Part shown: one piece after another, positions 9,326 through 37,723 of the stretch
How positions within the stretch are numbered: position 1 is the first letter of the stretch
How the letters are laid out: each line of letters opens with the position of its first letter
Origin: a candidate division TA06 bacterium
GTDB taxonomy: Bacteria; Hydrothermota; DG-26; E44-bin18
DNA: 64,000 nucleotides
NCBI GenBank assembly: GCA_004376575.1
Contig: SOJN01000142.1
Coordinates: 1-64,000 of the forward strand
Direction: 5' to 3'
Translations under genes and position numbers: made by a program
Notes under the pieces: model-generated
Told to the model about the DNA's origin: nothing
The model's database searches: none
The model's input: the letters and a program-made list of their open reading frames with translations, nothing else

Positions 9326-10424
9326 CTACTATCCCTATCCTGGTGGGATAGCCGAGCACATCCATCACGCGTCTTTGGAGTTGAGAGAGCTCGGTCACGA
9401 AGTCAAGATTCTGACAGCTTCCTATGGCGACAACCGCAGTTTCGGGAGCCCTCAGGTTATTCGTGTGGGACGGGGTGTTGTCATTCCAGTCAATAGATCT
9501 TTCTGTCTTGTTCCAGTGGGCTGGCGGCTCTCAGAAAGGGTAAGACAGGTACTTCGTGAGGGTGATTTTGACATTGTTCACACCCACGGACCTCTGGCAC
9601 CAGTCTTGCCGATGTTGGCTATCAAGCATTCTAAGGCTGTCAACATTGCCACTTTCCATGCTGCCCATTCTAGCTCCCTGGGGTATAAGATTTTCTCTCC
9701 CATTCTGCGTCACTACTTCGATAAGCTGAGTGGCCTCATCGCTGTTTCCGAAGTGGCCAAAGAGTCTATGGACAGGTACTTCCCCGGGGACTATAGGATT
9801 ATTCCAAATGGTATAGACATAAAGAGGTTCAATCCTGATCTTGAGCCAATTGAGACATATGCCGACGGAAGGCCTAACATACTTTTCGTGGGAAGATTTG
9901 ACCCGAGGAAGGGGTTGAAGTATCTTTTGATGGCAATGCCCAGGATACTGAAATCGGTTCCAGAGGCAAGGCTGCTCGTCGTGGGCAAGGGGTTTTTGGA
10001 AAGCTATTACAGGAGGTTTCTTGACGCAGAATTCAGAGAATCGGTGGTGTTTGTTGGCTACGTCGAACCCGAGCTTCTACCTAGATACTATACTACCTGT
10101 GATGTTTTCTGTTCACCTGCAACCGGAGCGGAAAGCTTCGGTATCATACTTCTGGAAGCGATGGCCGCAGGCACACCCCTGGTAGCGTCTGGCATTGACG
10201 GATACAGACGCGTGATCAGCCACATGGATGATGGGATTCTGGTTCCACCGACGGATTCTGAAGCCTTGGCAGATGGTATAGTCAAACTTCTGAGTGACAG
10301 ATCCCTGAGGATGAAGTTCAGGGAGAATGGTCTTAAGAAGGCGGAGTTCTATTCATGGGAAAGAGTCACCAAGACCATTGAGCAGTACTATGTCGAAGTT
10401 ATAGAAAGGGTGTCCCGCAAGTGA
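9300..10424 (+). CDS. Glycosyltransferase family 4 (PimA-like)
   Basis: This 374-residue GT-B glycosyltransferase has the acceptor-domain start MRILMVSDNYYPYPGGIAEH and the donor-domain landmarks VGRFDPRKGLKYLL and ESFGIILLEAMAAGTP (the E-x7-E nucleotide-sugar motif). The ATG at 9300, with GGGAGGAA upstream, is preferred over 9270; it lies inside the end of the acyltransferase gene. Such enzymes mannosylate or glucosylate lipid acceptors. The location fits envelope glycolipid or surface polysaccharide synthesis. Exact donor and acceptor are unknown. Confidence 0.88.
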   Translation: MRILMVSDNYYPYPGGIAEHIHHASLELRELGHEVKILTASYGDNRSFGSPQVIRVGRGVVIPVNRSFCLVPVGWRLSERVRQVLREGDFDIVHTHGPLAPVLPMLAIKHSKAVNIATFHAAHSSSLGYKIFSPILRHYFDKLSGLIAVSEVAKESMDRYFPGDYRIIPNGIDIKRFNPDLEPIETYADGRPNILFVGRFDPRKGLKYLLMAMPRILKSVPEARLLVVGKGFLESYYRRFLDAEFRESVVFVGYVEPELLPRYYTTCDVFCSPATGAESFGIILLEAMAAGTPLVASGIDGYRRVISHMDDGILVPPTDSEALADGIVKLLSDRSLRMKFRENGLKKAEFYSWERVTKTIEQYYVEVIERVSRK

Positions 10425-20544: not shown

Positions 20545-21651
20545 ATGGATCTAAAGCCTCTACTTGAACAGATGGTCAAAGATGATGCGTCTGATTTGCA
20601 TTTGAAGGCAGGGGCACGGCCCATACTGAGGATAGATGGCAAACTGGTTCCTGCCAACGAAAAGATACTGAGCCCGGACCACCTGCGGAAGATTGCGATT
20701 CAGTTGATGACTGAGGACCAGCAGCGTAGGTTTCAAAGGGACAAAGAGCTGGACTTCTCAATAGGTATTCAGGATCTTTGCCGTTTCAGGGTAAACGCCT
20801 ATATGCAGAGGGGCTCTATTGCCATTGCGATGAGGACAGTCCCCCTGTCGGTGAAGCACCTGGATCAACTGAACCTCCCGCCGGTACTGAAAGATCTCTG
20901 TATGAAACCCAGAGGGCTCATACTCTGTACGGGAACGACAGGAAGCGGCAAGTCAACCACGCTGGCTGCAATGATTGAACACATAAATATGACCATTGCC
21001 AAGAATATCATCACAATAGAAGATCCCATCGAATTTGTCTTTAGAGATGATAAAAGCGTGATTAATCAAAGGGAGCTCGGAACAGATACACATTCCTTCG
21101 CGTCTGCACTCAAGCATGTGATGAGACAGGATCCAGATGTTATCCTGATTGGAGAGATCAGAGATAAGGCTACAATTGATACGGGCATCAAGGCTGCAGA
21201 CACTGGTCATCTTGTTATGGCCACGCTGCACACCATGAATGCCACAGAAACGATAAATAGAATCATATCGTTCTATCCCACTCACCAGCAGCAGCATATC
21301 AGGGTCTTGCTGGCAACCACCCTTTCAGGTGTGGTCTGTCTAAGGCTAATGCCAAGAGCAGATGGGAAGGGAAGAATTCCTGCTGTGGAGATAATGATTT
21401 CTACGGCTACGATAAGGGAGTATCTTCTGGACCCGGTTAAAACTATGCTCATTCCGTCAGCGATTGAAGAAGGCATGGCCCAATACAGCATGCAATCCTT
21501 CGACCAGTCAGTTATGCGTCTGTACGTGGATGGTATGATCACCTATGATGCAGCCATAGAAAATGTGACCAATCCGGATGAGTTCAATCTGCGCCTGAGA
21601 GGTATTGAAGCCACTGCCGACCGTGGATGGGGTTCTTTCGAGAACAAATAG
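20545..21651 (+). CDS. pilT: Type IV pilus retraction ATPase PilT
   Basis: This 368-residue secretion ATPase depolymerises the pilus at the inner membrane. Motifs are Walker A CTGTTGSGKSTTLAAMI, Asp box TIEDPIEFV, Walker B region DPDVILIGEIRD and His box TGHLVMATLHTMNA. PilT-type features (a short N-terminal domain, and a family-like tail segment ending near RGIEA) separate it from PilB. The ATG follows GGAGGTGAAAC. It is oddly placed between accB and accC, far from the pilM-Q operon at 33-37.7 kb. No pilB, pilC or pilD is in the window. Confidence 0.95.
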   Translation: MDLKPLLEQMVKDDASDLHLKAGARPILRIDGKLVPANEKILSPDHLRKIAIQLMTEDQQRRFQRDKELDFSIGIQDLCRFRVNAYMQRGSIAIAMRTVPLSVKHLDQLNLPPVLKDLCMKPRGLILCTGTTGSGKSTTLAAMIEHINMTIAKNIITIEDPIEFVFRDDKSVINQRELGTDTHSFASALKHVMRQDPDVILIGEIRDKATIDTGIKAADTGHLVMATLHTMNATETINRIISFYPTHQQQHIRVLLATTLSGVVCLRLMPRADGKGRIPAVEIMISTATIREYLLDPVKTMLIPSAIEEGMAQYSMQSFDQSVMRLYVDGMITYDAAIENVTNPDEFNLRLRGIEATADRGWGSFENK

Positions 21652-23034: not shown

Positions 23035-23729
23035 CTGAAGCGATGTCACTGACTGAGTTTGATGATTGGACGAGGAGGCTCGCTAAGCTTGCTGCGGATT
23101 CCGGGGTGGATATTATTGGGTTTGCCAGCGTGAATGGGATGGAAAGTCTGGTGCACGAGTCGCTCAAGGGGTCTGTTTCCAGTCTGCAGTACGGGATCTC
23201 GTTGGGGTACAGGCTCTCAGACTCCGTAGTCGAAAACATAAAAGACAGCCCGACGCTCTTGTACAAACAGCACTATAAGACGGTCAACTGGATACTCGAT
23301 CAGTGCGCAGCCAGGGTAGCCCGCTTGATCGAATCGTCAGGGAGGAGGGCTCTGGCAATTCCTGCTTCTCAGACTGTTGACTGGGAGAGACAGGTCGGGC
23401 ACATGTCGCACAAGGCGGTTGCTGTTGCCTCGGGTCTGGGCTGGATAGGCAAGTCAGGGCTGGTGGTGAACAAGAAGCACGGCGCGAGGATCAGGTTCGC
23501 TTCGATTCTAACAGACCTGCCAGTAGAGATAGGAGGTCTGATAGAGAATGGATGCGGGAAGTGCGCGCGATGCATTGAGCTATGCCCGGCAGGTGCAATA
23601 AGCGAATCCGGCTACGACATGAGCAAATGCCTTTCCCAGTTGAAGACATTCGCCAGAAGGCCGGGCATAGGGGTGTACATCTGTGGGATCTGTGTCAAGG
23701 CCTGCCCTGTCAGGAAGGCGGAAGAATGA
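23031..23729 (+). CDS. QueG-like 4Fe-4S double-cluster protein
   Basis: This 232-residue protein ends in two ferredoxin-type clusters: CGKCARCIELCPAGAI and CGICVKACP, with an extra Cys in MSKCLSQL. The upstream part (HKAVAVASGLGWIGKSGLVV) matches the family of epoxyqueuosine reductase, a cobalamin/Fe-S enzyme. It is clearly shorter than full QueG (over 300 residues), and no HEAT-repeat tail is present. It may be a family member with another reductive role. The start is TTG at 23031, overlapping accC, or ATG at 23043. It overlaps the kinase start by 4 bases. Confidence 0.75.
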   Translation: MTEAMSLTEFDDWTRRLAKLAADSGVDIIGFASVNGMESLVHESLKGSVSSLQYGISLGYRLSDSVVENIKDSPTLLYKQHYKTVNWILDQCAARVARLIESSGRRALAIPASQTVDWERQVGHMSHKAVAVASGLGWIGKSGLVVNKKHGARIRFASILTDLPVEIGGLIENGCGKCARCIELCPAGAISESGYDMSKCLSQLKTFARRPGIGVYICGICVKACPVRKAEE

Positions 23730-25564
23730 GGAGACCTGGTAGTGTAGGGATAGGATTTGAAGCCAGCACGAGGCTTTTTGTCCTGTTGCTCGTAGTTTTT
23801 CTTCTGCTGGTGGACGTCGGTCTCTACTATGCGCTTTCCAGACTTGAAAATGTTATGGTCGATGAGTTCGACAGAAGGCTTCTAGTTTCATCTGTAATGG
23901 TCAAAGAAAGGCTTGAGATCAGTTCTCTGAGAGCTCTTCTGCAAGGCAAGGGTGGCGAGGAACCCGCGAGGCTTCTCAGAAAGAGCCTGAGAAGTGCGGC
24001 GCTCAGGAGCAGACTACTAAGAGCTACGATAATCGACAAAGAATACCGGGTTCTCCTCGACTCACGCATTATTGAACACCCCGCAACTGTGAAACTGGTT
24101 GAAGAGGACTTTCCGGATCTGGATCCCGTCTGGTCAGGCGAAGATCTTTTCGCGAACGTGAAAAGCGAAGGCCCCCTCTGGACAAGGTATCTGTTTTCCC
24201 CTCTTTCAGATGGTCAAAAGGTGTATGCCGTGCTGGCAATAGGCTCGGACTTCTCGCTTCACAGGCGTCTTCTGAGAATGGCTAGAAGCTACATGGTGGT
24301 AAGAATTCTGGGCATGGTCTCTGTGGTAGGAGTCGCCCTCTTTTTCGTCGTCTCTGTGTTGAGACCCTTCAGGAGGTTGAAGGAGACCGCTGAGGTGATC
24401 AGACATGAGGCCGACGGAGAAGAGGACAGCGAATTCATAATATCGACCTTTCAGAGGGTGATTGAAGATCTGAGGAAGAAGGAGGCTGAACTGGGAAGGC
24501 TCTACGCCGAACAGAAAAGCAAGGCAGAGAGTCTTGAAGAATATAATAGGTATATTCTGTCCAGCATGTCTGGAGGGGTGATCAGCGCAGACTCAGGCGG
24601 CAGTCTGGTGACATTCAATAGAGCAGCCGGCGAGATGCTGGGCATAGAGACTGAGGGAGCTGTTGGGCGTCCATACCTGAAAGTGTTGCTCCATCGGACC
24701 TTGACGGAGATGCTAAAGGGCGCATTGAACAGTGGCAGAATCCGCAAGGATGTCGAAATCGAAGTGGCCAGGGGGAACGTTCAGTCCACGTTGAGGCTTA
24801 GCTCCTCTGTGCTGAGGGGAGCCAGAGGAGAAATACTGGGCGCAGCGTTGCTCTTGACCGATATCACTGAGTTGAAAAGGCTTCAGGAGAATATTCTATT
24901 GAAGGAGAAACTTGCCTCTCTGGGCGAGATGTCCGCAGGAATCGCTCACCAGTTCAAGAACTCGGTCGGATCCATAATCGGTTTTGCCAATCTGTTGAAG
25001 AAGAAAGGATCATCTATTCAGACCATTGACAAGATTATAAAAGAGTCTATGATGTTGAATGATGTGGTAGAGTCTTTCTTGAGTTTTGCGAGGCCTGCAG
25101 AGGTTAATCCGTCCGTAGTGGACCTCGGAGCTCTTATTGAGGAGATTCTCGAACCTTTGCACGAGGAGATGAGGAACAGAGGCATAGACAGGAATGTTTC
25201 CTTCGGTGTAAGTTCACTGAATATAGTAGGTGACGCTGTACTCCTCAAGCAGGCCTTTGCAAATCTTCTCAGGAATGGTATTGACGCAATGCCTGACGGC
25301 GGCAGTCTTAGCATCGACTCTGTCCAGAACGGGCAGATGGCAGTGGTTAAGATAAGGGATACCGGTCGTGGAATTCCAAAGGAGAAGATTTCACAGGTAT
25401 TTACACCTTTCTTCAGTCTGACCCAGGGGGGAGTTGGGCTTGGATTACCCATAGCCCACAAGATAATTACTTCACACCGTGGAAGTATTGAGATTGAAAG
25501 CGAAGAAGGGGTGGGTACAACTGTGACCGTCCATCTTCCCAAAGAAGAGGGAGCAAATGGATAG
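23726..25564 (+). CDS. Membrane sensor histidine kinase with PAS domain (NtrB/PilS type)
   Basis: The 612-residue kinase has transmembrane segments at about 16-36 and 189-212 flanking an extracytoplasmic sensor of about 150 residues. A short coiled coil (240-275) and a PAS domain (about 277-385) follow. The HisKA box is GEMSAGIAHQFKNSVGSIIG with His408, followed by an HATPase domain (LLRNGIDAMPDGGS, DTGRGIP, GGVGLGLPIAHKI). The ATG at 23726 overlaps the previous stop (ATGA); the frame is open further upstream but inside that gene. Its response regulator overlaps by 8 bases. Placement before a pilin cluster suggests a PilS-like role. Confidence 0.9.
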   Translation: MRRPGSVGIGFEASTRLFVLLLVVFLLLVDVGLYYALSRLENVMVDEFDRRLLVSSVMVKERLEISSLRALLQGKGGEEPARLLRKSLRSAALRSRLLRATIIDKEYRVLLDSRIIEHPATVKLVEEDFPDLDPVWSGEDLFANVKSEGPLWTRYLFSPLSDGQKVYAVLAIGSDFSLHRRLLRMARSYMVVRILGMVSVVGVALFFVVSVLRPFRRLKETAEVIRHEADGEEDSEFIISTFQRVIEDLRKKEAELGRLYAEQKSKAESLEEYNRYILSSMSGGVISADSGGSLVTFNRAAGEMLGIETEGAVGRPYLKVLLHRTLTEMLKGALNSGRIRKDVEIEVARGNVQSTLRLSSSVLRGARGEILGAALLLTDITELKRLQENILLKEKLASLGEMSAGIAHQFKNSVGSIIGFANLLKKKGSSIQTIDKIIKESMMLNDVVESFLSFARPAEVNPSVVDLGALIEEILEPLHEEMRNRGIDRNVSFGVSSLNIVGDAVLLKQAFANLLRNGIDAMPDGGSLSIDSVQNGQMAVVKIRDTGRGIPKEKISQVFTPFFSLTQGGVGLGLPIAHKIITSHRGSIEIESEEGVGTTVTVHLPKEEGANG

Positions 25565-26924
25565 GGTTTTGATAGTCGATGACAAAGAGAGCTTCAGGGA
25601 CATGCTGAAGGAGACGCTGGTTGGCGAAGAGTTTGAAGTTGTGGCCGTGGGCGATGGAAAATCTGCAAAGGTAGAGACAGGTGCTTCAAGGTTTGACGTA
25701 GCGCTGGTTGATTTGAGGCTTCCAGGGAAAGATGGAATACATGTCTTGAGGGATTTGAAGAAAGAGGATGCCACTCTTCCTGTCATAATGATGACCGCCT
25801 ACGGCAGTGTGGAGACGGCAGTGAAGGCGATGAAGGAGGGCGCATACGATTTCATTGCAAAGCCCTTTGATACTGATCACCTGATAATACTGATCAAGAG
25901 GGCGATTGAGGAGGGCAAGCTGGTCAAGGAGAACATATATCTGAAAAGTGAGGTAAGAAGAAAGTACTCCTACAGAAACCTTGTTGGTGCTTCTGAGCAG
26001 ATGCTGAAACTCTACGAACTGATAGAGAGAATCTCCAAGTCGGATTCGAACATCCTCGTTGAGGGTGAGACCGGTACCGGTAAGGAACTGGTGGCCAGGT
26101 CAATACACTATGCCAGCAACAGGCATTCCAGGAAGTTCATTGCAGTCGTTTGCAGCGCACTTCCTGAACCGCTCCTCGAGTCCGAACTCTTCGGTCACAA
26201 AAGGGGTTCTTTTACGGGAGCGATCAGGGACGAAAGAGGTCTGATTGAAGAAGCTGACGGCGGAACCATCTTTCTGGATGAGATTGGAGACGCTCCCCTT
26301 TCTGTCCAGGCGAAGTTGCTTAGAGTCCTTGAAGAGGGCGAGATAAGAAGAGTTGGTGATACTCAGTACAGAAGTGTTGATGTGAGGGTGCTCTGCGCTA
26401 CCAACAAGAGACTGGCCGATGAGGTTAAGGCTGGAAGGTTCAGGGAAGACCTCTTCTACAGGCTGAACGTAATTGCCATATCCGTACCGCCCCTGCGGGA
26501 GCGGAGAAAAGACATTCCGCTTCTGGCAGAACATTTTCTCAAGCTGTACTCCGCAAAAATGAAAAAGAGGGTACTGGGGTTTGAAAAAGAAGCTATGGAG
26601 TTTCTGGTCAGGAGCGACTGGCCTGGGAATGTGAGGCAACTGGAGAACGTAATTGAAAGGTCTGTCGCCCTCGGAGATACAGATAAGATTTTGCTCAAAC
26701 ACTTAGAAGGGGGGATGAGTGAACCTGAACTGCTCAGCTCTCTTGCTGGTATGCCGCAAGAAAACCTTAAAGCTGCAGGGGCGTGGGGCAGGAGGATGGC
26801 CGAAAAGGAACTGATTAGCAAGGCTCTCCAGGAAGCTGGGGGGAACAAGAGCCAGGTGGCCAGAAGACTAGAAGTGAGCTACAAAACCCTACTGGCAAAG
26901 GTGAGGGAGTATGGGTTAGGATAA
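25557..26924 (+). CDS. Sigma-54-dependent response regulator (NtrC/PilR type)
   Basis: This 455-residue activator has a receiver domain with Asp52 (VALVDLRLPGKDG), an AAA+ domain with Walker A GETGTGKE and Walker B GGTIFLDEIGD, and a Fis-type HTH (SQVARRLEVSYKTLLAKVRE). The sigma-54 contact loop reads GSFTGA rather than GAFTGA, a tolerated variant in some activators. A near-perfect sigma-54 promoter lies 144 bases downstream, before the pilin genes, so that cluster is the obvious target. The start overlaps the kinase gene. Confidence 0.92.
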   Translation: MDRVLIVDDKESFRDMLKETLVGEEFEVVAVGDGKSAKVETGASRFDVALVDLRLPGKDGIHVLRDLKKEDATLPVIMMTAYGSVETAVKAMKEGAYDFIAKPFDTDHLIILIKRAIEEGKLVKENIYLKSEVRRKYSYRNLVGASEQMLKLYELIERISKSDSNILVEGETGTGKELVARSIHYASNRHSRKFIAVVCSALPEPLLESELFGHKRGSFTGAIRDERGLIEEADGGTIFLDEIGDAPLSVQAKLLRVLEEGEIRRVGDTQYRSVDVRVLCATNKRLADEVKAGRFREDLFYRLNVIAISVPPLRERRKDIPLLAEHFLKLYSAKMKKRVLGFEKEAMEFLVRSDWPGNVRQLENVIERSVALGDTDKILLKHLEGGMSEPELLSSLAGMPQENLKAAGAWGRRMAEKELISKALQEAGGNKSQVARRLEVSYKTLLAKVREYGLG

Positions 26925-27067: not shown

Positions 27068-27083
27068 TGGCACGCTTCTTGCG
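27068..27083 (+). promoter_or_regulatory. Sigma-54 promoter of the pilin cluster
   Basis: TGGCACG-CTTC-TTGCG matches the TGGCACG-N4-TTGC core exactly. The first pilin start codon is at 27111, giving a short leader with AAGGAGGGAAGG. Confidence 0.85.
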
Positions 27084-27110: not shown

Positions 27111-27542
27111 ATGGTTAGAGGTTCGCGAGGCTTCACAATGATTGAACTCATGGTGGTCATTGGCATAATAGGAGTGATGACGGCCATAAGTATACCTTTC
27201 TATATTGGATACAGACCAAAACTCTTACTCAACCAGGCAAGCAACAAAGTCCTTGCATCGGTGAGATTGGCCAGGGCGGCCGCAGTAGCCGAAGCCAGGC
27301 CACGCACCATCTATTTCTCCTGGGATAATGAGGCTTACAAGATAGACGATGGACCATGGATTCCTCTCGGCCTTCGGGTAGACATGGCCAAGGGGGAAGG
27401 CTGGACTGAAGATTTTCTCTCTTTCAGCCCCGATGGAAAGGCGAGTACCAGCGGCAGAATAGTGTTTAGCAGTACTGCGATACAAGAGGAGTTTGAGCTT
27501 TACGTGTCTATTGCGGGATTCACAAGGCTTCGGCTGAAGTGA
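27111..27542 (+). CDS. Type IV pilin-like protein (GspH/FimT type)
   Basis: This 143-residue pseudopilin has a class III leader MVRGSRG followed by FTMIELMVVIGIIGVMTAIS, the prepilin peptidase/methylation site with Glu+5 and the hydrophobic helix. The C-terminal domain is small and beta-rich, like GspH/FimT. Such minor pilins prime pilus assembly at the inner membrane. It is the first gene behind the sigma-54 promoter; the PilV-like gene begins 13 bases later. Confidence 0.87.
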   Translation: MVRGSRGFTMIELMVVIGIIGVMTAISIPFYIGYRPKLLLNQASNKVLASVRLARAAAVAEARPRTIYFSWDNEAYKIDDGPWIPLGLRVDMAKGEGWTEDFLSFSPDGKASTSGRIVFSSTAIQEEFELYVSIAGFTRLRLK

Positions 27543-27555
27543 GGTAGGCAAGAAG

Positions 27556-27951
27556 ATGGGTCTGAGAAACGAAAGTGGATTTAGCATGATCGAGCTCCTG
27601 GTGGCCATGGTTGTCATAGCCCTGGGGCTTCTCTCAATCTCTGCGCTTTTCCCCTTGGGGTCCAGAGCCAGAATGAGGGGAGAGGGGATCACCAAAGCGA
27701 TTGAGCTGGCACAGCAGAGGATGGAACAGCTTGTAGAGCTGGGCTATGACAATCTTGAAGATGGATGTGATTCCACAGTTATACGAGCGTACAGAGTCAA
27801 GTGGTGTATAAGTACGCTCAAGTGGGGTCCTGGTACGTACGATGCGCTCAAAATAGTTACAGACACTGTAACGTATATTACGCCGGGCGGAGGATACAGG
27901 AAGGTGGGACTGACGACTTATGTATCACCCAAGATCTCCGGAGGGAGGTAG
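27556..27951 (+). CDS. Minor pilin PilV-like protein
   Basis: This 131-residue protein has the leader MGLRNESG followed by FSMIELLVAMVVIALGLLSI, a PilV/GspI-type prepilin helix (AMVVIALGLL is characteristic). A short C-terminal domain has two Cys (EDGCDST, VKWCIST), perhaps a disulfide. The next gene starts directly after its stop codon, so the two are one transcriptional unit. Confidence 0.83.
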   Translation: MGLRNESGFSMIELLVAMVVIALGLLSISALFPLGSRARMRGEGITKAIELAQQRMEQLVELGYDNLEDGCDSTVIRAYRVKWCISTLKWGPGTYDALKIVTDTVTYITPGGGYRKVGLTTYVSPKISGGR

Positions 27952-30528
27952 ATGACCAAGATGAGGAGAACAAGCGGTTTTACCCTTGTCGAAGTGATTA
28001 TTTCTCTGGCCATATTCACAATTATAGCCGCTGTTCTTTTTACGATTCTGATAAGAAACCAACAGAGTGCGCGAGTTACCGCTAACCTGATTGAAGCTCA
28101 GCAAAACGCGAGAGTGGCTGTTGATGTTCTCTCCCGTGATGTGAGGATGGCTGGATATGGAGTTGACGTGCTTAATTACCAGCCAGTAGTGCAGTATGCT
28201 GGCCCCTTTGAAATTATGTACAACTCAAACATGCAACCCTATCCTGATACTTCTGACCCCAGGGGAGACCCGCAGGCTCTCGATTGGGGGGGTGCCAACT
28301 TGCCGCCCCATTCGCTCAGGTCCGCCACAGGCCCTAATGACACCACAGGCGCGGAAACAATAGTATACACCCTGGATGCCGACGAGGACGGGGACATAGA
28401 TCAGGATGATGTTGCAGCAAATCGTCCGACAGCAGAGACCTACAATCCTTACGACATGATGCTGATACGCCGGGTTTATGGCTATAACAGCGCCCTGGGA
28501 CAGAACACCGTCACTTTTGACGAGCTCGCCCTGGTTCGCGGGCCTATACCCGCAGGCGTGGTTGTTGAGCCCCTCTTCCTTTACTGGCTCGATACGGACA
28601 GGGACGGTATTGCTGATTCGCTTTATGGTGACACCGAAGCTCCTGAAGGTGAATTGAATGAGAGCGAGATAGCAGCGCTAACACCTTTGATTTGGCCGGA
28701 TGATGCTGCTACATTGAGGCAGATTGCGAGGATAACCGTTACTGCCATAGGAGAGATGCCTGAAAAGGACAAGAACTACACGGACAACAACGGCTACAGA
28801 CAGATCAGGGTGACCTCTGATGTGACCATACCCAAGACCTTTGTAATTGAACGCAGGGAGATAGCGGGCACGGTTTTCCGTGACTGCGGCGGAACTCAGA
28901 CAGGAATTCAGGGTTGGAGAGTGGAGTTGAGTCCGGCCATTTATGATATAAGCGCCACTGACGGCAGTTACTCTTTTGAAGTTGCTCCAGGAGCTTACCA
29001 GGTCGAATTGAAAGACGTGGTGGACCCGTGGCATTTTACCATTGGCGGCGCAATACAGACTGTCGATGTTACCGAATCCAGTGTGACTGACGTCGATTAT
29101 TTCATTGACTCACCGTATGGAACGGTCCATGGTTCTGTTTTTTGGGATAAAGATAAAGACAGTCTCTGGTCGGAAGATGACGTTCTCATTGATACTGTGT
29201 ATGGAGACACTGCACGCCTTGGATGGGGTATTTGGGTGGTAGAAGGGGGTAGTCTCAGTACAGACACTTTCAAAATTGTGCCCCCGGATTCTGAATACGC
29301 TTTTTATGAGTTCTTCAAGCGGGACTATGATTATTCTTGGTACTGTACGACGTATACGAGTGGTAGCCGCCCGAATCCTTTCATCTTCATAGCCGGCCAT
29401 GATGCTGGAATGCCTGATGAGTGCGATTTTGATTTTCGATACGATGTTCCTTTGATCAGGGTGTCCTTAATGCCGAGCTGCTCCCTGCCGGAGCTGGCAG
29501 CGTATCAGCTGGGTGGGAACCTCATCCGCATTGAGTGGGTAGTGTATGATCCAGACACCCCGTGGGACTCATTGACCAGTACCCTGGAGTATTCCCTGGA
29601 CCTGGGAGCACCGGGGACGTGGGAGACTCTCAGGTATACCGAAGGTCCCGATACTGTCATGCCCGATACTACGGGTCTCGACAGCACAGGTTTGGCCAGT
29701 TTTATGTGGTTTGTACCTCAAATGATGATGACGGAACCCAAGCTTCTTCTTAGGTTAAAAGTGGACGACCCTGATACGCTCAATAAGACCTGTGTAACGG
29801 TGTCGGATCCGATGAAGATAAATATCCCATGGCTCGGCCGGGAAGGGGTGTTCGCGGTCCGCGATAGGGTTCCTGGTACTCGATGGGCTGACAGACAGCC
29901 ACCGAATTTCGACACCCTTCATGTTGAGGGTCTTCAGGTGATGCCTATGAGGAACACTCAAGGCGACTCGCTGTACCTGCCCAGTGGGGTGGTGTGGTAT
30001 ACTGATACTCTTGAAGAAGATACGGCAATGGCGGTTGCGGATAGTATGGGCATATATGACCTGATAATCTACTGGCAGCAGGATACGGTGGAGGTTGAGG
30101 GGGAAACGGGTGACTCGAGTAAGGTCTATGCTGATAGCGCTCGCTGGATAACCGAATACGATATCCCCGAAGGTAATATGGTCGAATCGGGTCTGTGGAG
30201 ATTCTATTTCTGGGGTAACTATGAGTCAGATGTGGACTGCGATATCAAGTTTGTCCCGGAGATCTATTGCTGCGATAATGACGGTAGTAACGACTCTCTC
30301 GTTTTCAGCGCCGATTCACTGGCCATAACTACCAACCTTGTCAAGGCACCTGGTCGGTCCCTTGTTAAAATCGAGTATACTACCTACGATGACGTTGTTG
30401 ACTGTGAAAAGTTGATGTTGAGGGTTAAGACAAAAAGGATGGACGACGAGGCGTCTGAAGCTACTATCTATTTCTATTATAGTGGACCAAGTATTTCGTA
30501 TCTCATAACGCCAGCGTATGTCGAGTAG
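27952..30528 (+). CDS. Giant PilW-like pilin with extended extracellular region
   Basis: The 858-residue protein starts with a prepilin leader and helix (MTKMRRTSG / FTLVEVIISLAIFTIIAAVL), then a PilW-like segment (QQNARVAVDVLSRDVRMAGYG). Classical PilW proteins are about 300-400 residues. Here roughly 500 more residues follow: a Cna-B/SdrD-like beta unit (about 303-380, AGTVFRDCGGTQ ... GSYSFEVAPGAYQV), a related DKDKDSLWSEDD unit, and Asp/Thr-rich segments. That region should lie outside the cell and could be a tip adhesin. It ends overlapping the start region of the PilX-like gene. Confidence 0.82.
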   Translation: MTKMRRTSGFTLVEVIISLAIFTIIAAVLFTILIRNQQSARVTANLIEAQQNARVAVDVLSRDVRMAGYGVDVLNYQPVVQYAGPFEIMYNSNMQPYPDTSDPRGDPQALDWGGANLPPHSLRSATGPNDTTGAETIVYTLDADEDGDIDQDDVAANRPTAETYNPYDMMLIRRVYGYNSALGQNTVTFDELALVRGPIPAGVVVEPLFLYWLDTDRDGIADSLYGDTEAPEGELNESEIAALTPLIWPDDAATLRQIARITVTAIGEMPEKDKNYTDNNGYRQIRVTSDVTIPKTFVIERREIAGTVFRDCGGTQTGIQGWRVELSPAIYDISATDGSYSFEVAPGAYQVELKDVVDPWHFTIGGAIQTVDVTESSVTDVDYFIDSPYGTVHGSVFWDKDKDSLWSEDDVLIDTVYGDTARLGWGIWVVEGGSLSTDTFKIVPPDSEYAFYEFFKRDYDYSWYCTTYTSGSRPNPFIFIAGHDAGMPDECDFDFRYDVPLIRVSLMPSCSLPELAAYQLGGNLIRIEWVVYDPDTPWDSLTSTLEYSLDLGAPGTWETLRYTEGPDTVMPDTTGLDSTGLASFMWFVPQMMMTEPKLLLRLKVDDPDTLNKTCVTVSDPMKINIPWLGREGVFAVRDRVPGTRWADRQPPNFDTLHVEGLQVMPMRNTQGDSLYLPSGVVWYTDTLEEDTAMAVADSMGIYDLIIYWQQDTVEVEGETGDSSKVYADSARWITEYDIPEGNMVESGLWRFYFWGNYESDVDCDIKFVPEIYCCDNDGSNDSLVFSADSLAITTNLVKAPGRSLVKIEYTTYDDVVDCEKLMLRVKTKRMDDEASEATIYFYYSGPSISYLITPAYVE

Positions 30529-30583: not shown

Positions 30584-32164
30584 ATGACACGCCGCGATGA
30601 AAAAGGAATGGCCCTTGTCCTCGCCATAATGCTTCTGCTTGTGCTGTTCGTGATGGGTTCCACCCTTCTCATGCTGGCGACCACTGACGTAAAGATTGCC
30701 AGCCATCAGATGAGGGACAACAAGGCCCTTTTTGTCGCTGATGCCGGCATTCAGGAAGTTCTCACCAGGATTACCTCAGACGCTAGCTATGTTGGAGACC
30801 CTGCGGACTTTGTCAATCCGGACTGGCAGTCGGAGATTTACGCCTCAGGTCCGCCTGCGGGCGCTGGCGATACACTGCGCTTCCTGACGCTCCCTGGATG
30901 CGGCGTACTGAATTATGCAGATCCGACTGCGCCCGTCACAGTCCACTACTTGAAAAACAGAGACGGCGATGTCATCTACTATGATCCCGACACCAAGGAA
31001 CGCGTGACAGACATGCCTCCGCCTCTGGGCGCCGTCCCCATACATGTGGCCGAAGCAACGGGCACAGCGCATGGAGGGGTCTATCCGGTAAGGAGAAAAG
31101 CTATCACTGAGTTCATAGTAAGCACACTCGACTATGAGGATTTTTATTACGCGCTTCATACAGGAGGAGATATCTATTTCAGAGCGATATCTTCGTCAAA
31201 AGCAGGGAGATTGTCCACGTTTTCCGCATACAGCGATGAGATATCGATTCTGAGACACAATGACGGGGATACGATATACATAGATATGGACGGTAGTGAG
31301 TCGTACGACATGGATACGGAAGTGAACTTCTTCGGCGGGGAATGGAACCCCTCTTCTTCCTACGATCTTATGCAGATGAGAAACGTGTTTACAGGGTATC
31401 CTCCACCTCATACACCCCCTCCGAACCCTGACCTGGGCCATCTTGACAGTACCGGTTTGATCTTCGCTAATGGAGATATTAGGTTAGATACGATTGACAC
31501 CTTCATTCCCAAGTTTGGTCAGACTTGGCTTACGGGCACATTGGTCAACTACGATCCATCTGACACAACATATATTCACGGAGGATACAGTGAAGGCGAG
31601 GATCCTTTTCCCGTCCCTCTCATAAACATGTCTCATGATTACTGGAAGTACCACGGCGCCGAGATAATAGACAGACTGCACCCGAGCAGTGTTCCAGCAA
31701 ACTGGGAGCTGGACACTCTGGGGTACCACTGGAAGGGTGGGGCTACAGCGCAGATGGACTCTGGAACTTATTTCTTTTCTGACGACAATGTAATTATCGA
31801 CAGCATCTTTGATCCACTTGGTGATGTGAAAATCATTACCCCTTTCAGCATCTATATCAGCAACGACGTAACCTATGAGGACGACGATGCGAAGGCAATA
31901 GCTTTTCTGGCCGGGGAGGATATTGGCGTAGGTGGGGATATGGCCAATGTGATAGTCAAGGCACTACTTTATGCAAAAAAAGGAGATCTTACCATCTCCA
32001 AGCAGGCTGTGATTCTGGGCGCGGTCATAATCCGCGGCGATGCTGAGATCAGTGGTGAGTGTGCTATAATCCTGGACAAGAGGCTCAACGGTGTGTTCGA
32101 GTTTGTTGAGCCTGAAAAGAAATATGTGAGTACGGTGCTCTCTTGGCGTGAGGTGAGACCGTAG
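30584..32164 (+). CDS. PilX-like pilus assembly protein
   Basis: This protein has 526 residues from ATG 30584, which follows AAGGAG and places the start just before a PilX-type N-terminus (EKGMALVLAIMLLLVLFVMG ... ALFVADAGIQEVL). An in-frame ATG at 30518, overlapping the previous gene, would add 22 atypical residues. Typical PilX is under 200 residues. The long remainder is beta-rich and Asp/Tyr-rich and ends in repeated short strands (ISKQAVILGAVIIRGDAEIS) resembling a bactofilin-like solenoid. It is the last gene of the cluster; a strong terminator follows. Confidence 0.78.
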   Translation: MTRRDEKGMALVLAIMLLLVLFVMGSTLLMLATTDVKIASHQMRDNKALFVADAGIQEVLTRITSDASYVGDPADFVNPDWQSEIYASGPPAGAGDTLRFLTLPGCGVLNYADPTAPVTVHYLKNRDGDVIYYDPDTKERVTDMPPPLGAVPIHVAEATGTAHGGVYPVRRKAITEFIVSTLDYEDFYYALHTGGDIYFRAISSSKAGRLSTFSAYSDEISILRHNDGDTIYIDMDGSESYDMDTEVNFFGGEWNPSSSYDLMQMRNVFTGYPPPHTPPPNPDLGHLDSTGLIFANGDIRLDTIDTFIPKFGQTWLTGTLVNYDPSDTTYIHGGYSEGEDPFPVPLINMSHDYWKYHGAEIIDRLHPSSVPANWELDTLGYHWKGGATAQMDSGTYFFSDDNVIIDSIFDPLGDVKIITPFSIYISNDVTYEDDDAKAIAFLAGEDIGVGGDMANVIVKALLYAKKGDLTISKQAVILGAVIIRGDAEISGECAIILDKRLNGVFEFVEPEKKYVSTVLSWREVRP

Positions 32165-32253: not shown

Positions 32254-32736
32254 CTAAGGGTAATCCGTTCTCCAGATTCCCCAATCCATCTCAACATAGA
32301 ATTCCTTATTGAGTCCATAGGCGTCTTCACCATTAAAGCGCAATCTGGCAATAGCATAGTCATTACCATTGTAAATGTAGTCGACCAGGGTCTGGCTTAT
32401 CGGAACGGGAAGATGCAAGAGGTCGACGGTGGTAGTGTCTCCTGGAAGAACGAAATGCATGTTGATGGGTGGCAGCGCTGGCGCTATTTCACTATCTCCG
32501 TGTGAGTCGAAATATTTGATTTCAAGGTTGGTGACCACGGCGTCGACATAGTTGGCCACCTGAAACCTGATGGTGTCGGCGGCGATGGTGGTATCTCCAG
32601 ACGCCTGGTCTATCACACCTGTCAGCGGATTGACCCAAACTATAACCACCTCAGGCGTAGGCAGCATCTGGCTCACCTGGCCGCAGCCCATGGCCACAAT
32701 GGCAACAATAGCAAGAATTACTGGGACTATCTTCAT
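32254..32736 (-). CDS. Small lipoprotein of unknown function
   Basis: The 160-residue protein has a lipoprotein signal (MKIVPVILAIVAIVAMGC, lipobox at Cys18). The mature part is predicted mainly beta, like an Ig/LEA-type domain, and ends GIWRTDYP. I do not recognise the family. The ATG at 32736 follows AAAAGGAGGCTACG, and a sigma-70 type promoter lies upstream, so it is a single-gene unit facing the pilin cluster. Confidence 0.75.
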   Translation of the reverse strand: MKIVPVILAIVAIVAMGCGQVSQMLPTPEVVIVWVNPLTGVIDQASGDTTIAADTIRFQVANYVDAVVTNLEIKYFDSHGDSEIAPALPPINMHFVLPGDTTTVDLLHLPVPISQTLVDYIYNGNDYAIARLRFNGEDAYGLNKEFYVEMDWGIWRTDYP

Positions 32737-32984: not shown

Positions 32985-33170
32985 ATGCCACTGGCACCAA
33001 AGGAAATAGATCCAAACAAACTTTATACAGTCGAGGAGACTGCCACCTTTCTTTCAGTGAGCGGGCAAACTGTCAGAAAACATCTCAGGGACAGGAAACT
33101 GACCGGCAGGAAGATCGGCAGAAAGTGGCACATTAGGGGATCAATGATTCGAAGATTCATCGAGATATAG
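32985..33170 (+). CDS. Excisionase-type helix-turn-helix DNA-binding protein
   Basis: This 61-residue protein is almost entirely one HTH_17/MerR-like winged helix: YTVEETATFLSVSGQTVRKH then LTGRKIGRKWHIRGSMIRRF. ATG 32985, after GGAGGCAAC, is preferred over 32967. It is the first gene behind a consensus promoter, 30 bases before pilM, so it may autoregulate the pilus operon. No integrase or phage gene is nearby, which argues against a true excisionase. Confidence 0.8.
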   Translation: MPLAPKEIDPNKLYTVEETATFLSVSGQTVRKHLRDRKLTGRKIGRKWHIRGSMIRRFIEI

Positions 33171-33200: not shown

Positions 33201-34235
33201 ATGCTGGGTAAGAAAAAGTCTGCAGTTGGGCTCGACATTGGTAGCTGCCTGGTTAAGTTTGTAGAAATCCAGGGGCTACCAAAAGCTCCCAGTCTGGCAA
33301 ACTATGGAATTTGCAGACTCCTTCCTGACGCTATCGTTGACGGCGAGGTTATGGATAGGGAAGTTGTCATCGACACTGTCAAGACCCTTTTTGATACAAG
33401 GGGAGAAAAGAACAAGGATGTTGTTGTCGCCGTCTCCGGCCGCGGAGTCATAGTGAAGAAGATAACTATGGCGAAAATGAAAGAGTCTGAAGCCCAGGAG
33501 CAGATAAGATGGGAGGCGGAGCAGCACATTCCATTTGACATAAACGACGTGTCGCTCGACTTCGAAATAGTAAACCCTGATGCAGAAGGCGGGCAAATGG
33601 AGGTCCTCCTTGTGGCGGCGAAATCTGAGGTCGTTAGTTCCCGCATCACCCTGCTCAGAGAGGCAGGCTTGAATCCAGTCGCCGTGGATGTGGCCTGTTT
33701 CGCTGTCCAGAATGCTTTCGTGGCAAACTATGAAGCCAAGCCTGGCGAGCTCATTGCCATCGTCAACATTGGGTCTGAGGTCACCAACATCAACTTCGTT
33801 CAAGATAACACAAGCCATTTCACGAGAGACATAACACAGGCTGGCAACGATTGCTCTCAGAGAATTCAGAAAAACCTCGGCCTGAGCACTGACCAGGCCA
33901 TGGATGTACTCAAGGGAGAGAGGCCGAAGGACATTGACGATGATGTTCTTCAGTCTGTTTTTCAGTCCTTCAGCGAGGACCTCTCCGTGGGGATAGAGAG
34001 AGTCCTTCCTTATCTCCCGGGAGGAACTGAGAAGATGGATAGAATTGTGCTTGCCGGCGGTGGCGCAACGATCCCCGGCCTAGCATCATTTCTCTCGGAG
34101 AAATTCGGTGTCCCGGTGGAGATTCTTAATCCTATAAAGAAGATATCATATGACCCGGCCCTTTTCGGCGCTGATGACGTCGAAAAGGTGGCCCCCGCGT
34201 TGAGTCAGGCTGTTGGTCTGGCGCTGCGGGGATGA
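33201..34235 (+). CDS. pilM: Type IV pilus assembly protein PilM
   Basis: This 344-residue actin-like ATPase has phosphate-binding loops SAVGLDIGSCLVKFVEI and AIVNIGSEVTNINFV, and the adenosine loop IVLAGGGATIPGLASFL. PilM is a cytoplasmic ring protein that binds the PilN tail and links the alignment subcomplex to the assembly ATPase. Length is close to the family norm (about 350). It begins the pilMNOPQ order, 30 bases after the HTH gene. Confidence 0.94.
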   Translation: MLGKKKSAVGLDIGSCLVKFVEIQGLPKAPSLANYGICRLLPDAIVDGEVMDREVVIDTVKTLFDTRGEKNKDVVVAVSGRGVIVKKITMAKMKESEAQEQIRWEAEQHIPFDINDVSLDFEIVNPDAEGGQMEVLLVAAKSEVVSSRITLLREAGLNPVAVDVACFAVQNAFVANYEAKPGELIAIVNIGSEVTNINFVQDNTSHFTRDITQAGNDCSQRIQKNLGLSTDQAMDVLKGERPKDIDDDVLQSVFQSFSEDLSVGIERVLPYLPGGTEKMDRIVLAGGGATIPGLASFLSEKFGVPVEILNPIKKISYDPALFGADDVEKVAPALSQAVGLALRG

Positions 34236-34250
34236 AGATAGGTGCTTGAG

Positions 34251-34877
34251 ATGATTAGGATTGATTTACTTCCAAAAGAAGAAAGGAAGAGAAAACCCAC
34301 ACTGGCGCCGAGGGCTCGTGCACCGAGAGCAGCCAGGGCGCCCGTCAAAATAAGAATCCCCGTGGGTGCAGATACTGCCATTGTGGTGGTAATCTTTGTG
34401 GTCATTCTGGGATTGATGTATTTCATGTTTGCCGCGCAGAAAAGAGAAATCGCCCGGCTTGACGATGAGATAGCTTCAATGCAGGCTGAACTGAAAAGGC
34501 TGAAAGAGGCCGTACGACTGGTAAAGGACCTGGAGGAGAAAGAGCGTGCGATCAAGGTTAAGCTTGAGATCATAGGCAAGCTGAACAAGGATAGGTTCTT
34601 GATTGCACACATGTTGGATGAACTGAGTAGACTCGTGCCTGAAAATTGTTGGATACTATCTGTTGTTGAGAAAAAGCTATCTGTGGCCATAGAGGGAATG
34701 TCGTTCTCTAATTTCATAGTCGCAGATTTTATGAAGAAGCTTGAGGCTTCCCAGTATTTCCAGAATGTTAATCTCTCGGTTGTAAGCAGGGACAAGGTTG
34801 GTGGCTACGAGCTGATGAAGTTTAAGCTTACGACAAACCTCACCTCCCCGAAGCCGTTGCGGACGACTGGGGGGTAG
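34251..34877 (+). CDS. pilN: Type IV pilus assembly protein PilN
   Basis: The 208-residue inner-membrane protein begins MIRIDLLPKEERKRKP, the conserved cytoplasmic tail that binds PilM. A basic Ala/Pro linker, one transmembrane helix (about 44-63) and a periplasmic coiled coil (about 66-112) follow, then a ferredoxin-like domain. ATG 34251 is chosen so that the family tail starts the protein; a GTG at 34242 is also in frame. It partners PilO. Confidence 0.9.
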   Translation: MIRIDLLPKEERKRKPTLAPRARAPRAARAPVKIRIPVGADTAIVVVIFVVILGLMYFMFAAQKREIARLDDEIASMQAELKRLKEAVRLVKDLEEKERAIKVKLEIIGKLNKDRFLIAHMLDELSRLVPENCWILSVVEKKLSVAIEGMSFSNFIVADFMKKLEASQYFQNVNLSVVSRDKVGGYELMKFKLTTNLTSPKPLRTTGG

Positions 34878-34926
34878 AGCGAGAAGAAGCGAGAGTTAGT
34901 TGGCAGTTAAGGCTTGAGGAGAGTAC

Positions 34927-35550
34927 ATGCGCAAAAGACTTTTGGTGATAATTATTGCGGTCCTGGGAATCGCAGCAAGCGGGCTGTTCTATAAATACGG
35001 CCTGGCAGAGAACAAGATTAAGATACACGATCTTGAAGAGAAGCATGCGGCCTATATCGATTCGGTCAACAAAGCGAGGACTGTCGCAGAACGGCTGGAT
35101 GAAATGAAAAGAAGGCTCCGCATCGCGGAGCTCCAGTGGGAGAAGGCCACTGAGATGCTTCCCAGGGAGAAAGAGATCCCCGATCTGTTGACTTCGATAA
35201 CTCGGGTCGGAGCAAAGAACAACGTTTCTTTCCGGCTCTTTCAGCCAAATCCGATGAAACCGGAAGACATATACGTGTCCGTTCCCGTAAGAGTCGCCGT
35301 CTCGGCTACTTACCACGATTTGGGTGGGTTTTTGAGTGCCATCGGCAACCTACCCAGAATCGTGAGGGTGAGCGGCCTGAAACTGGTTGGGAGTAAAGGA
35401 GAAAATGTAAGTGTGACAGCGGATTTCCTGCTCACGACCTATGTACTTTCAGAAGCCAAGACAAGGGTAGCGACCAGAAGGAAGCCCAGAGCGACACCCG
35501 GGCAGAGCAGAAGGCGCGAACCTTCACCCACAGAACTTGGAGAGGACTAG
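34927..35550 (+). CDS. pilO: Type IV pilus assembly protein PilO
   Basis: This 207-residue protein has a transmembrane helix at about 3-20, a coiled coil (about 27-70) and a periplasmic domain with the PilO pattern LTSITRVGAKNNVSFRLFQP and TYHDLGGFLSAIGNLPRIVR. The basic Arg/Pro-rich C-terminal tail (about 180-200) is unusual. It forms heterodimers with PilN in the periplasm. Its position between pilN and pilP supports the call. Confidence 0.9.
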   Translation: MRKRLLVIIIAVLGIAASGLFYKYGLAENKIKIHDLEEKHAAYIDSVNKARTVAERLDEMKRRLRIAELQWEKATEMLPREKEIPDLLTSITRVGAKNNVSFRLFQPNPMKPEDIYVSVPVRVAVSATYHDLGGFLSAIGNLPRIVRVSGLKLVGSKGENVSVTADFLLTTYVLSEAKTRVATRRKPRATPGQSRRREPSPTELGED

Positions 35551-35577
35551 CATCTGACCTATGTTCTGGGAGGCACG

Positions 35578-36027
35578 ATGAGACGAATCTTCATTCTAAT
35601 TGCTGTTCTTATTTTTGGTTCTGGATCAGCACTTCTGTGTCAGGAGTCCGGCGAAGAGACGCCGTCGGAATCCACGTTGTCGACTGCTTTGGATGAATCG
35701 CTCGAGGTTGAACTTCCCTTTGAAAGAGAGTTCTATCACTACGACAAGATTGGAAGAAGAGATCCTTTTCTACCCTTGGTCCCCAAGGAAGACGTGACGG
35801 TCCCGAGCATCAACAATCTTGTGCTTATGGGTATCATCTGGGGGTATGCCGGCAAAGTGGCTGTGATCAAGGAGAGGGGAGGCGTGGGCTACGTGATGAG
35901 AGAAAGAGATGAGGTTGCCGGCGGCAGTGTAGGGCGTATCACCACGGATTCAATAACGTTTGTCCTGGAAGAATTTGGAGTTGTGTCTGAGTATACACTT
36001 ACCCTTAAGGGTCAAGGCCGGAGGTGA
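35578..36027 (+). CDS. pilP: Type IV pilus assembly protein PilP
   Basis: This 149-residue protein has an N-terminal signal (MRRIFILIAVLIFGSGSALLC); the Cys at about 21 may serve as a lipobox. After an acidic linker comes the PilP-type beta domain, starting YDKIGRRDPFLPLVPK (the R-DPF motif of PilP) and NNLVLMGIIW. It links PilN/O to the secretin. The stop is 10 bases before the pilQ start. Confidence 0.87.
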   Translation: MRRIFILIAVLIFGSGSALLCQESGEETPSESTLSTALDESLEVELPFEREFYHYDKIGRRDPFLPLVPKEDVTVPSINNLVLMGIIWGYAGKVAVIKERGGVGYVMRERDEVAGGSVGRITTDSITFVLEEFGVVSEYTLTLKGQGRR

Positions 36028-36037
36028 GGAGGTCGAG

Positions 36038-37723
36038 ATGATTAAGAGTGCAAGTAAGGTGCCACTGATGATTCCACCCCTGTTAATTCTCTTGTTTTCT
36101 GTTGCACTGGGTGCGGGCCTGAACGACATTGTAGTCACCAGGTCTTCACAGGGCACGCAGGTGATTCTGGTCTGCGATTCTCCCACTTCGTTCAGACACT
36201 ACAGGCTTGCCGGCCCTTCTCGGATAGTTCTGGAGTGTGCCGGCCTGCAAAACAACATCAAGGGTCAGAATTACTCTGGCATCAACAGGGGCGGAGTTTC
36301 AAGTATATCCATCTCACGATTTGAACAGGCGGATTTCGGGAGAGTCATCATCCAGACGGCGCTCCCAGTCGATTACGCTGTTGTAGGCTCCGCCAACACC
36401 GTCATAGTAACGCTGGAAACAGGCACTGGTGTTCCCGGTTTTTCCGAATGGCGTGCCAGCAGATCAGAGGCGGTTGTTTACAAACCTCCCAGGGAGCAGG
36501 TCAAGCCAGCGACCGTATCTCCACCGACGACAAAGACTGTTTCGACCAAGAAGGTGGCCCAGCCTCAAACAAGGCGTTTGGGAAAGCTGGTTTCGATGGA
36601 CCTTGAGGGGGCTGATCTCTTGACTGTGTTGAGGGCTCTGGCAGAATACAGCGGCAGGAACATGGTTGCTGGAAAGGGCGTCAAGGGTACGGTAACAGTG
36701 TCTCTGCGCGACGTCCCCTGGCAGCAAGCCCTCAAAATCATTCTCAAGGCTACTGGTTATGCCTATGTTGAGGAAGGCGGAATAATAAGGATTGCCACTC
36801 CCAGTAGTCTGGGAAGGGAGAGGGACGAACGGGAAAAAGCGGCTCCGTTGGTTGACAGGGTCTATAAGATAGAGTTTGCCGAAGTAAGGGAAATTTCCAC
36901 GGTCGTGTCGAGGTCCCTCTCGAAGAGGGGACGTGTGGAATCGGATGTCAGGACAAACTCCCTTGTCGTCAGTGACATCGCTGAGAGCCAGCGGAAGGTC
37001 GCGAAACTGATAGGAATTCTCGATTCTCCCACGCCGCAGGTTGAGATTGCTGTGAAGGTCGTGGAGATGAATTATGATTTCTCGAGAGACCTCGGCCTTC
37101 AGTGGACTACGGAAAATCTGACGAGCAAGAAGTACAACATAACCGGCGACCTTACAATTGGTGAGCCCATTGAAGAGGGCCACCAAGTTCACATCGCCAC
37201 CCTCAGAAATTTTGCGCTGCTTGATGCTAAGCTTAGAATATTCGAAAAAGAAGACAAGCTGAAGACCATAGCTAGTCCGAGAGTGGTGGCTGTTAACAAT
37301 CGGGAGGCGATGATTCTCGAAGGCAAAAAGTTCACGATCATTGCACTCGACCAGAGAGGAAATCCAATAACTCAGCTTTATACCGTGGGAACGCTTCTGA
37401 GAACCACGCCCCACATAAACTCTCTTGATGAGATAACCTTAGATATCCATGCCGAGCTATCCAATGTAAGTGAGACTTCGGTCCTGCAGAGAGCACCCAT
37501 CATTACCACCAGTGAGGCAACCACCAGGCAGCTGGTCAAGGACGGCGAGACGGTCGTTCTTGGTGGGTTCATACGGGAGAGTGAGTCGACATCAGAGAGT
37601 GGGATTCCAATCCTGAGAAGCATCCCTCTCCTAGGTAATCTTTTCAAATCCACCAGCAAAGCTGTAACTCGGAGAGAGATAATTTTCTTCATCACTCCAC
37701 ACATACTGAGGAGAATAGAGTAA
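36038..37723 (+). CDS. pilQ: Type IV pilus secretin PilQ
   Basis: This 561-residue outer-membrane secretin begins at ATG 36038, after GGAGGTCGAG, with a signal sequence (about 8-27). An AMIN domain follows (about 30-130, DIVVTRSSQGTQVILV), then an STN/N0 domain (LLTVLRALAEYSGRNMV), an N1 domain (VYKIEFAEVREISTVV) and the secretin core (VEIAVKVVEMNYDFSRDLGL ... IPILRSIPLLGNLFKS). It forms the pore through which the pilus exits. It closes the pil operon. Confidence 0.95.
   Translation: MIKSASKVPLMIPPLLILLFSVALGAGLNDIVVTRSSQGTQVILVCDSPTSFRHYRLAGPSRIVLECAGLQNNIKGQNYSGINRGGVSSISISRFEQADFGRVIIQTALPVDYAVVGSANTVIVTLETGTGVPGFSEWRASRSEAVVYKPPREQVKPATVSPPTTKTVSTKKVAQPQTRRLGKLVSMDLEGADLLTVLRALAEYSGRNMVAGKGVKGTVTVSLRDVPWQQALKIILKATGYAYVEEGGIIRIATPSSLGRERDEREKAAPLVDRVYKIEFAEVREISTVVSRSLSKRGRVESDVRTNSLVVSDIAESQRKVAKLIGILDSPTPQVEIAVKVVEMNYDFSRDLGLQWTTENLTSKKYNITGDLTIGEPIEEGHQVHIATLRNFALLDAKLRIFEKEDKLKTIASPRVVAVNNREAMILEGKKFTIIALDQRGNPITQLYTVGTLLRTTPHINSLDEITLDIHAELSNVSETSVLQRAPIITTSEATTRQLVKDGETVVLGGFIRESESTSESGIPILRSIPLLGNLFKSTSKAVTRREIIFFITPHILRRIE

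Follow-up and report, generated by a model that had tools for sequence, protein, structure and literature searches.

The window, a 64,000-nucleotide stretch from a candidate division TA06 bacterium, contains what by its gene content is a type IVa pilus (T4aP) locus, with an oversized pilW between pilV and pilX. The minor-pilin genes, all on the forward strand, are a fimT/gspH-like gene (27111..27542, 143 aa; N_methyl and GspH PF12019), pilV (27556..27951, 131 aa; TIGR02523 E 7.1e-8, below the model's cut-off), the extended pilW (27952..30528, 858 aa; N_methyl E 2.2e-7; other families of the phylum have full-length homologues) and an enlarged pilX (30584..32164). On the same strand follow pilM, pilN, pilO, pilP and pilQ (33201..37723), with model matches for pilM (E 4e-69) and pilQ (E 1.5e-83) and with pilN, pilO and pilP assigned by order and size only; the retraction ATPase gene pilT lies upstream (20545..21651, +; TIGR01420 E 8e-135). 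Between pilX and pilMNOPQ are a lipoprotein-like gene on the opposite strand (32254-32736), without an NCBIfam match, and, immediately 5' of pilM, a short ORF (32985-33170, +; 61 aa) with the look of an excisionase/MerR-type helix-turn-helix.

An AtoS-type histidine kinase gene (~23729-25564; NCBIfam model E 2.8e-87) stands directly upstream of a gene for a PilR/NtrC-type sigma54 response regulator (25557..26924, +; NCBIfam AtoC/NtrC models E 1e-137 to 1e-128). An exact match to the sigma54 (-24/-12) promoter pattern, TGGCACGCTTCTTGC (27068..27082, +), is located 28 bases 5' of fimT, with 0.14 matches expected by chance per whole window; two further matches, at 9595 and 36050, are both intragenic and were set aside. 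Because this site precedes fimT, genome G001 has a sigma54-type site with one mismatch at the same place and rpoN was found in the source genome, the adjacent PilR-like regulator is probably the switch for the minor-pilin operon.

The pilW ATG abuts the pilV stop codon, and the stretch GGAGGGAGG lies just 5' of it. The oversized 858-residue prepilin reported by the initial annotation at 27952-30528 is borne out by an open frame, a prepilin N-terminus and homologues to which it aligns end to end at 25–30% identity, C-terminal domain included. The leader ends at G9, the Gly at the cleavage point of a type III signal peptide, and the mature protein starts with FTLVEV, including Glu5 (TSG/FTLVEV). 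A mature core (residues 10-298; 27979..28845, +), with an N-terminal helix, Glu5 and a length like that of ordinary PilW of the phylum, gives a layout of ~300 residues followed by an extension of ~560. No PilW-specific model exceeded its cut-off when the window protein was scanned, the best being gspJ TIGR01711 of the PilW/J class (E 9e-4, 19.1 bits versus 64.85), over the helix region only, and the name PilW is therefore based on the slot between pilV and pilX and on the homologues. A chance or low-complexity ORF is ruled out by the full-length homologues and misassembly by independent MAGs that share the architecture; a PDB search with the full protein returned chance matches only (magnesium chelatase, E 0.01).

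Modular pilins, which join a pilin module to domains that are not pilus-specific, are a described class of more than 1,200 proteins in 264 architectures, one of them 860 residues long (PMC8179133). The window protein combines the signal peptide and Glu5, a gene position between pilV and pilX in a locus that also carries pilM-Q and pilT, and SdrD_B domains recognized through homologues and a profile. We infer that it is a PilW-class minor pilin of a type IVa pilus that has turned modular, with predicted incorporation into pili. Its size, which had been presented as exceptional, is not so by itself given the 860-residue example, but it is not that of a routine PilW in its phylum.

Our comparison set comprised 147 genomes (MAGs) of phylum WOR-3, the Caldifarciminota of NCBI. 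Long matches to a six-row profile identified extended PilW in nine of these genomes, plus one interrupted by a contig end, while PilW has about 190–340 residues in the ordinary minor-pilin operons that were read. The protein is thus not the routine PilW domain of this phylum that the initial annotation had allowed for, and other large PilW fusions, for which candidate phyla had been suggested as a place to look, do occur within WOR-3/Caldifarciminota. Lengths are 858 (G000), 851 (G013), 856 (G019), 903 (G022), 859 (G030) and 1051 aa (G140); contig ends limit G025 to at least 678 and G001 to at least 560 aa, the G031 protein is divided between two contigs, and pilW of G002 runs off its contig after about 70 residues, which are 56% identical to the window protein. 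The G022 protein (L076:5998-8706, +) has a long Gly/Pro-rich insertion (PPGGGG repeats) in its C-terminal domain that is absent from the other homologues.

The extension begins with a SdrD_B-like B domain 1 (residues 303-388; 28858..29115, +), for which the family profile matches the staphylococcal SdrD (10ps, E 2.2e-9) and UafA (3irp, E 4.4e-4). B-like domain 2 (residues 389-500; 29116..29451, +) was delimited by alignment to homologues and by a second SdrD_B stretch in L078. SdrD_B PF17210 is matched by three homologues (best E 2.2e-13, in domain 1), with L078 and L077 matching in two stretches. The B domains of the window PilW fall below Pfam thresholds and have no match on their own; these copies are worn, and domain 1 lacks its Ca2+ loop. 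The Cna-B-like units of the initial annotation accordingly hold up as B-type (Cna-B-superfamily-like) domains, through the PF17210 matches of the homologues and the SdrD match of the profile. An Ig-like domain with an Asp-box follows (residues 503-626; 29458..29829, +), placed by the homologue profile and by weak sialidase/Reelin Asp-box matches; we regard it as a shared module because the Ig-like section of the profile also picks up many other large proteins from this phylum, among them one of 1197 aa in the source genome. The C-terminal beta-rich domain (residues 636-858; 29857..30525, +) is conserved in five homologues and belongs to no known family, and its profile found no relative in the PDB. 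In G140 (L077:1234-4389, +), FG-GAP repeats after the B domains replace the Ig-like and C-terminal domains, so the end module of the arm appears exchangeable. The PF05567 beta-propeller of PilY1 had no match in the window PilW. AlphaFold models of the complete protein, computed with an alignment to four homologues (pLDDT 35.5), and of residues 503-858 (pLDDT 39.4) were both unusable.

The Asp/Thr-rich DKDKD stretches described initially are in part confirmed: DKDKD is present once, in B-like domain 2 (residues 399-403), at a site that in relatives is occupied by a Ca-type loop (DLNGDG), whereas by motif scan the Asp-rich stretches are mainly EF-hand-like Ca2+ loops. One such loop in the core, DADEDGDIDQDD (residues 142-153; 28375..28410, +), recurs at the same position in each of the eight extended PilW that span this site, the window protein included; a shuffled version of the window PilW would be expected to contain about 0.003 loops of this kind. 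The scan found a second Asp-rich loop, DTDRDGIAD, at residues 214-222 (28591..28617, +). Three of 15 small PilW have one EF-hand-like loop, at residues 92, 255 and 262, positions unaligned to the large core.

FimT and PilV are of normal size, enlargement being limited to PilW and PilX. The pilX ORF extends over 548 aa from 30518, and we chose the ATG at 30584, giving 526 aa, because AGGAGGG precedes it. That the following PilX-like protein is large, as first noted, is correct (PilX_N PF14341 E 1e-9); its mature N-terminus, MALVLAIM, is without Glu5, and its C-terminal end, initially described as solenoid-like, has a weak DUF7305 match (E 0.01). Where PilX_N matches were measurable, PilX has 431–551 aa beside large PilW versus about 130–210 aa in most other genomes. 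The exceptions, near 450 aa, are in G012 and G024, without PilW beside them, and in G057, with a PilW of 187 aa.

Most pili of this type use a separate tip protein, PilY1, regarded as the standard tip protein of diderm T4aP; its mode of priming assembly and of attaching to surfaces is a matter of continuing debate. Two operon types occur in the phylum, one with the order fimT-pilV-small pilW-small pilX-pilY1 and the other, that of the window, with large pilW and large pilX and without pilY1. In the former, small pilW (190-324), small pilX (149-173) and pilY1 (936-1235) are clustered (G006, G009, G011, G046, G066, G067, G080, G088, G028, G005 and G131), and pilY1 was not found in or adjoining the large-type operons that were read. 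PF05567 detected PilY1 in 70 of the 147 genomes but gave no match in any of the ten with large PilW (Fisher p 0.001 by genome, 0.003 by family and 0.019 with the window's three families counted once). A second search, using a profile built from nine PilY1 of the phylum, likewise gave 0/10 for the large-PilW genomes and 6/6 for the controls (E 8e-76 or better); the PF05567 blank in the source genome was accepted as absence only after positive controls had matched. Neither PilY1 nor extended PilW was detected in 67 of the other 137 genomes. Families f13, f31, f5 and f17 have a clear PilM, mostly as a ~540-aa frame, together with neither PilY1 nor extended PilW.

An RpoB tree of 30 genomes rejected a single clade of large-PilW genomes (p-AU 0.0002). 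G022 groups with the PilY1 genomes G135, G005 and G131 (100/100) and G140 with G020, G003, G026 and G143 (100/100), both being placed among PilY1 lineages. Since the large PilWs are homologous over the core and B domains yet do not form one clade, either the large type would be old and replaced by the pilY1 type several times, or the large-type operon would have moved sideways; under both histories the two tip types swapped places.

In M. xanthus, PilY1 forms a priming and tip complex with FimU, PilV, PilW and PilX, in which PilX stabilises PilY1 and PilX and PilW are its partners (PMC7541494). Modelling places PilX directly beneath PilY1, with strand complementation (PMC13190605). The absence of PilY1 from all large-PilW relatives suggests that the tip may have been rebuilt as one covalent arm. 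The idea that the extended PilW is a tip adhesin, put forward in the initial annotation, is plausible, and the absence of PilY1 wherever extended PilW occurs is further evidence for it. Our preferred reading, which we rate about as probable as not, is that, in this modular minor pilin of a T4aP, the covalent arm and the enlarged PilX together took over the tip role of PilY1. With slightly less confidence, we suggest that these are diderm T4aP tips free of PilY1, in which the function resides on PilW, together with PilX, as a covalent exchangeable arm, and that operons with and without pilY1 interchanged several times.

In the proposed mechanism, prepilin peptidase would cut PilW after G9, and PilW would assemble with FimT, PilV and the Glu5-less PilX into a priming complex that exits via PilQ and remains at the pilus tip. 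The two B domains would serve as the stalk of the arm, and its end would be formed by the Ig-like and C-terminal domains. The enlarged PilX would cap the complex and the PilW arm stand in for the body of PilY1, the two together doing its job of capping, priming and binding a surface or polymer. We speculate that linked narrow beta-sandwiches may get through PilQ where a rigid barrel cannot.

Replacement of PilY1 by the arm is favoured by the occurrence of both operon types in one phylum, by the 0/10 count in genomes that are not one clade, and by the enlargement of just those two minor pilins that are PilY1 partners in M. xanthus (PMC7541494). The EF-hand-like loops of the core also recall the Ca2+ dependence of PilY1, which acts via an EF-hand-like Dx[DN]xDGxxD motif (PMC8833165), and the B domains match those of SdrD. 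Against it, about half of the other genomes are also without detectable PilY1, so that its absence is not peculiar to the large-PilW group; the statistics are carried by only a few independent events; and in G024 an operon with a large PilX coexists with a PilY1 encoded elsewhere. Nor is passage of a 60-kDa arm through PilQ self-evident, given that sfGFP on PilW3 of M. xanthus jams the machine, probably at the secretin (PMC7541494), and the source genome has other minor-pilin sets able to supply a tip.

One alternative is an ordinary modular pilin, in which the arm would be an adhesin or a module for substrate binding added to PilW, the absence of PilY1 a coincidence of lineage, and capping the work of the minor pilins alone or of an unrelated protein. 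This is a possibility to be taken seriously, though we doubt it: the class is common and diverse (PMC8179133), the 67 genomes with neither protein accord with it and the Ig-like domain is widespread among large proteins of the phylum, but it leaves aside that PilX is enlarged too and that, in separate lineages, these are the very operons without pilY1. A structural or secretory role could instead be read from weak matches to gspJ and GspK: extended PilW and PilX would tip a short pseudopilus pushing out proteins for export, like GspI-J-K in type II secretion, and the two minor-subunit sets are interchangeable for piliation (PMC10191384); pilM-pilQ and the retraction ATPase pilT in the locus are the mark of a T4aP, however, and make this quite improbable. 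The sub-threshold B domains and the lost Ca loop of domain 1 might also indicate that the arm is a leftover of domain shuffling, decaying or neutral, with no selected function in the source genome. That account is very unlikely in view of a single open frame of 858 codons and of the identity retained along the whole protein.

Modular pilins are already known; new here would be the PilW-class version, its pairing with a large PilX and the absence of PilY1, and the literature searched, subscription papers being outside it, yielded no report of a PilW version or of PilY1 being excluded by one. PilB and PilC of S. sanguinis likewise consist of a pilin module bearing large adhesive-type domains (PMC8179133, PMC9934059), and modular pilins there substitute for the conserved set of minor pilins (PMC10191384). 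They carry vWA and lectin modules in a monoderm host, whereas the window has a canonical FimT-PilV-PilW-PilX set and PilQ, B-type and Ig-like modules, and a PilX that is also enlarged. PilY1/PilC of diderm T4aP is similar in its presumed seat on the minor-pilin complex, its Ca2+-type loops and its modularity (PMC7541494, PMC8833165), but is a separate non-pilin with a PF05567 propeller; in the window the propeller is absent and the modules are built into the pilin. CofB, ComZ and GspK are pilin subunits with large extra domains as well, and CofB and GspK have been proposed at the tip (PMC8179133); their extra folds and systems (T4bP, competence, T2SS) differ. The B domains of the surface adhesins SdrD and UafA (10ps, 3irp) share the profile match and tandem stalk arrangement but belong to LPXTG-anchored proteins, while the window stalk is borne by a pilin without LPXTG.

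One operon slot with two fillings, small PilW and PilX plus PilY1 or large PilW plus large PilX without PilY1, separates the tasks of the tip, namely capping, priming and binding, from its mode of attachment, and this natural pair of operon types offers a direct comparative test of the tip-complex model. It suggests that adhesive modules are exchangeable on PilW itself.

The source genome has three minor-pilin sets (window, C46 and C80), with PilX of 459–526 aa in all three and PilY1 in none. The number of sets is the same in M. xanthus, but there every set includes a PilY1 (PMC7541494). A natural reading of these gene sets is that they would provide alternative tips without PilY1. On contig C46 (L032:5783-8434, -), a second oversized PilW of 885 aa lies beside a 492-aa PilX-like protein and consists of a pilin, three Invasin_D3/Big_1 repeats (E 8e-26) and five FG-GAP repeats (E 2e-25). 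The third set, on contig C80 (L041:7745-10205, +), follows sensor-type genes and pairs a small PilW (223 aa) with a large PilX-like protein (459 aa). Contig C75 (L042:2765-7359, -) carries tandem near-identical genes of major-pilin type (168 and 171 aa) near a likely prepilin peptidase gene.
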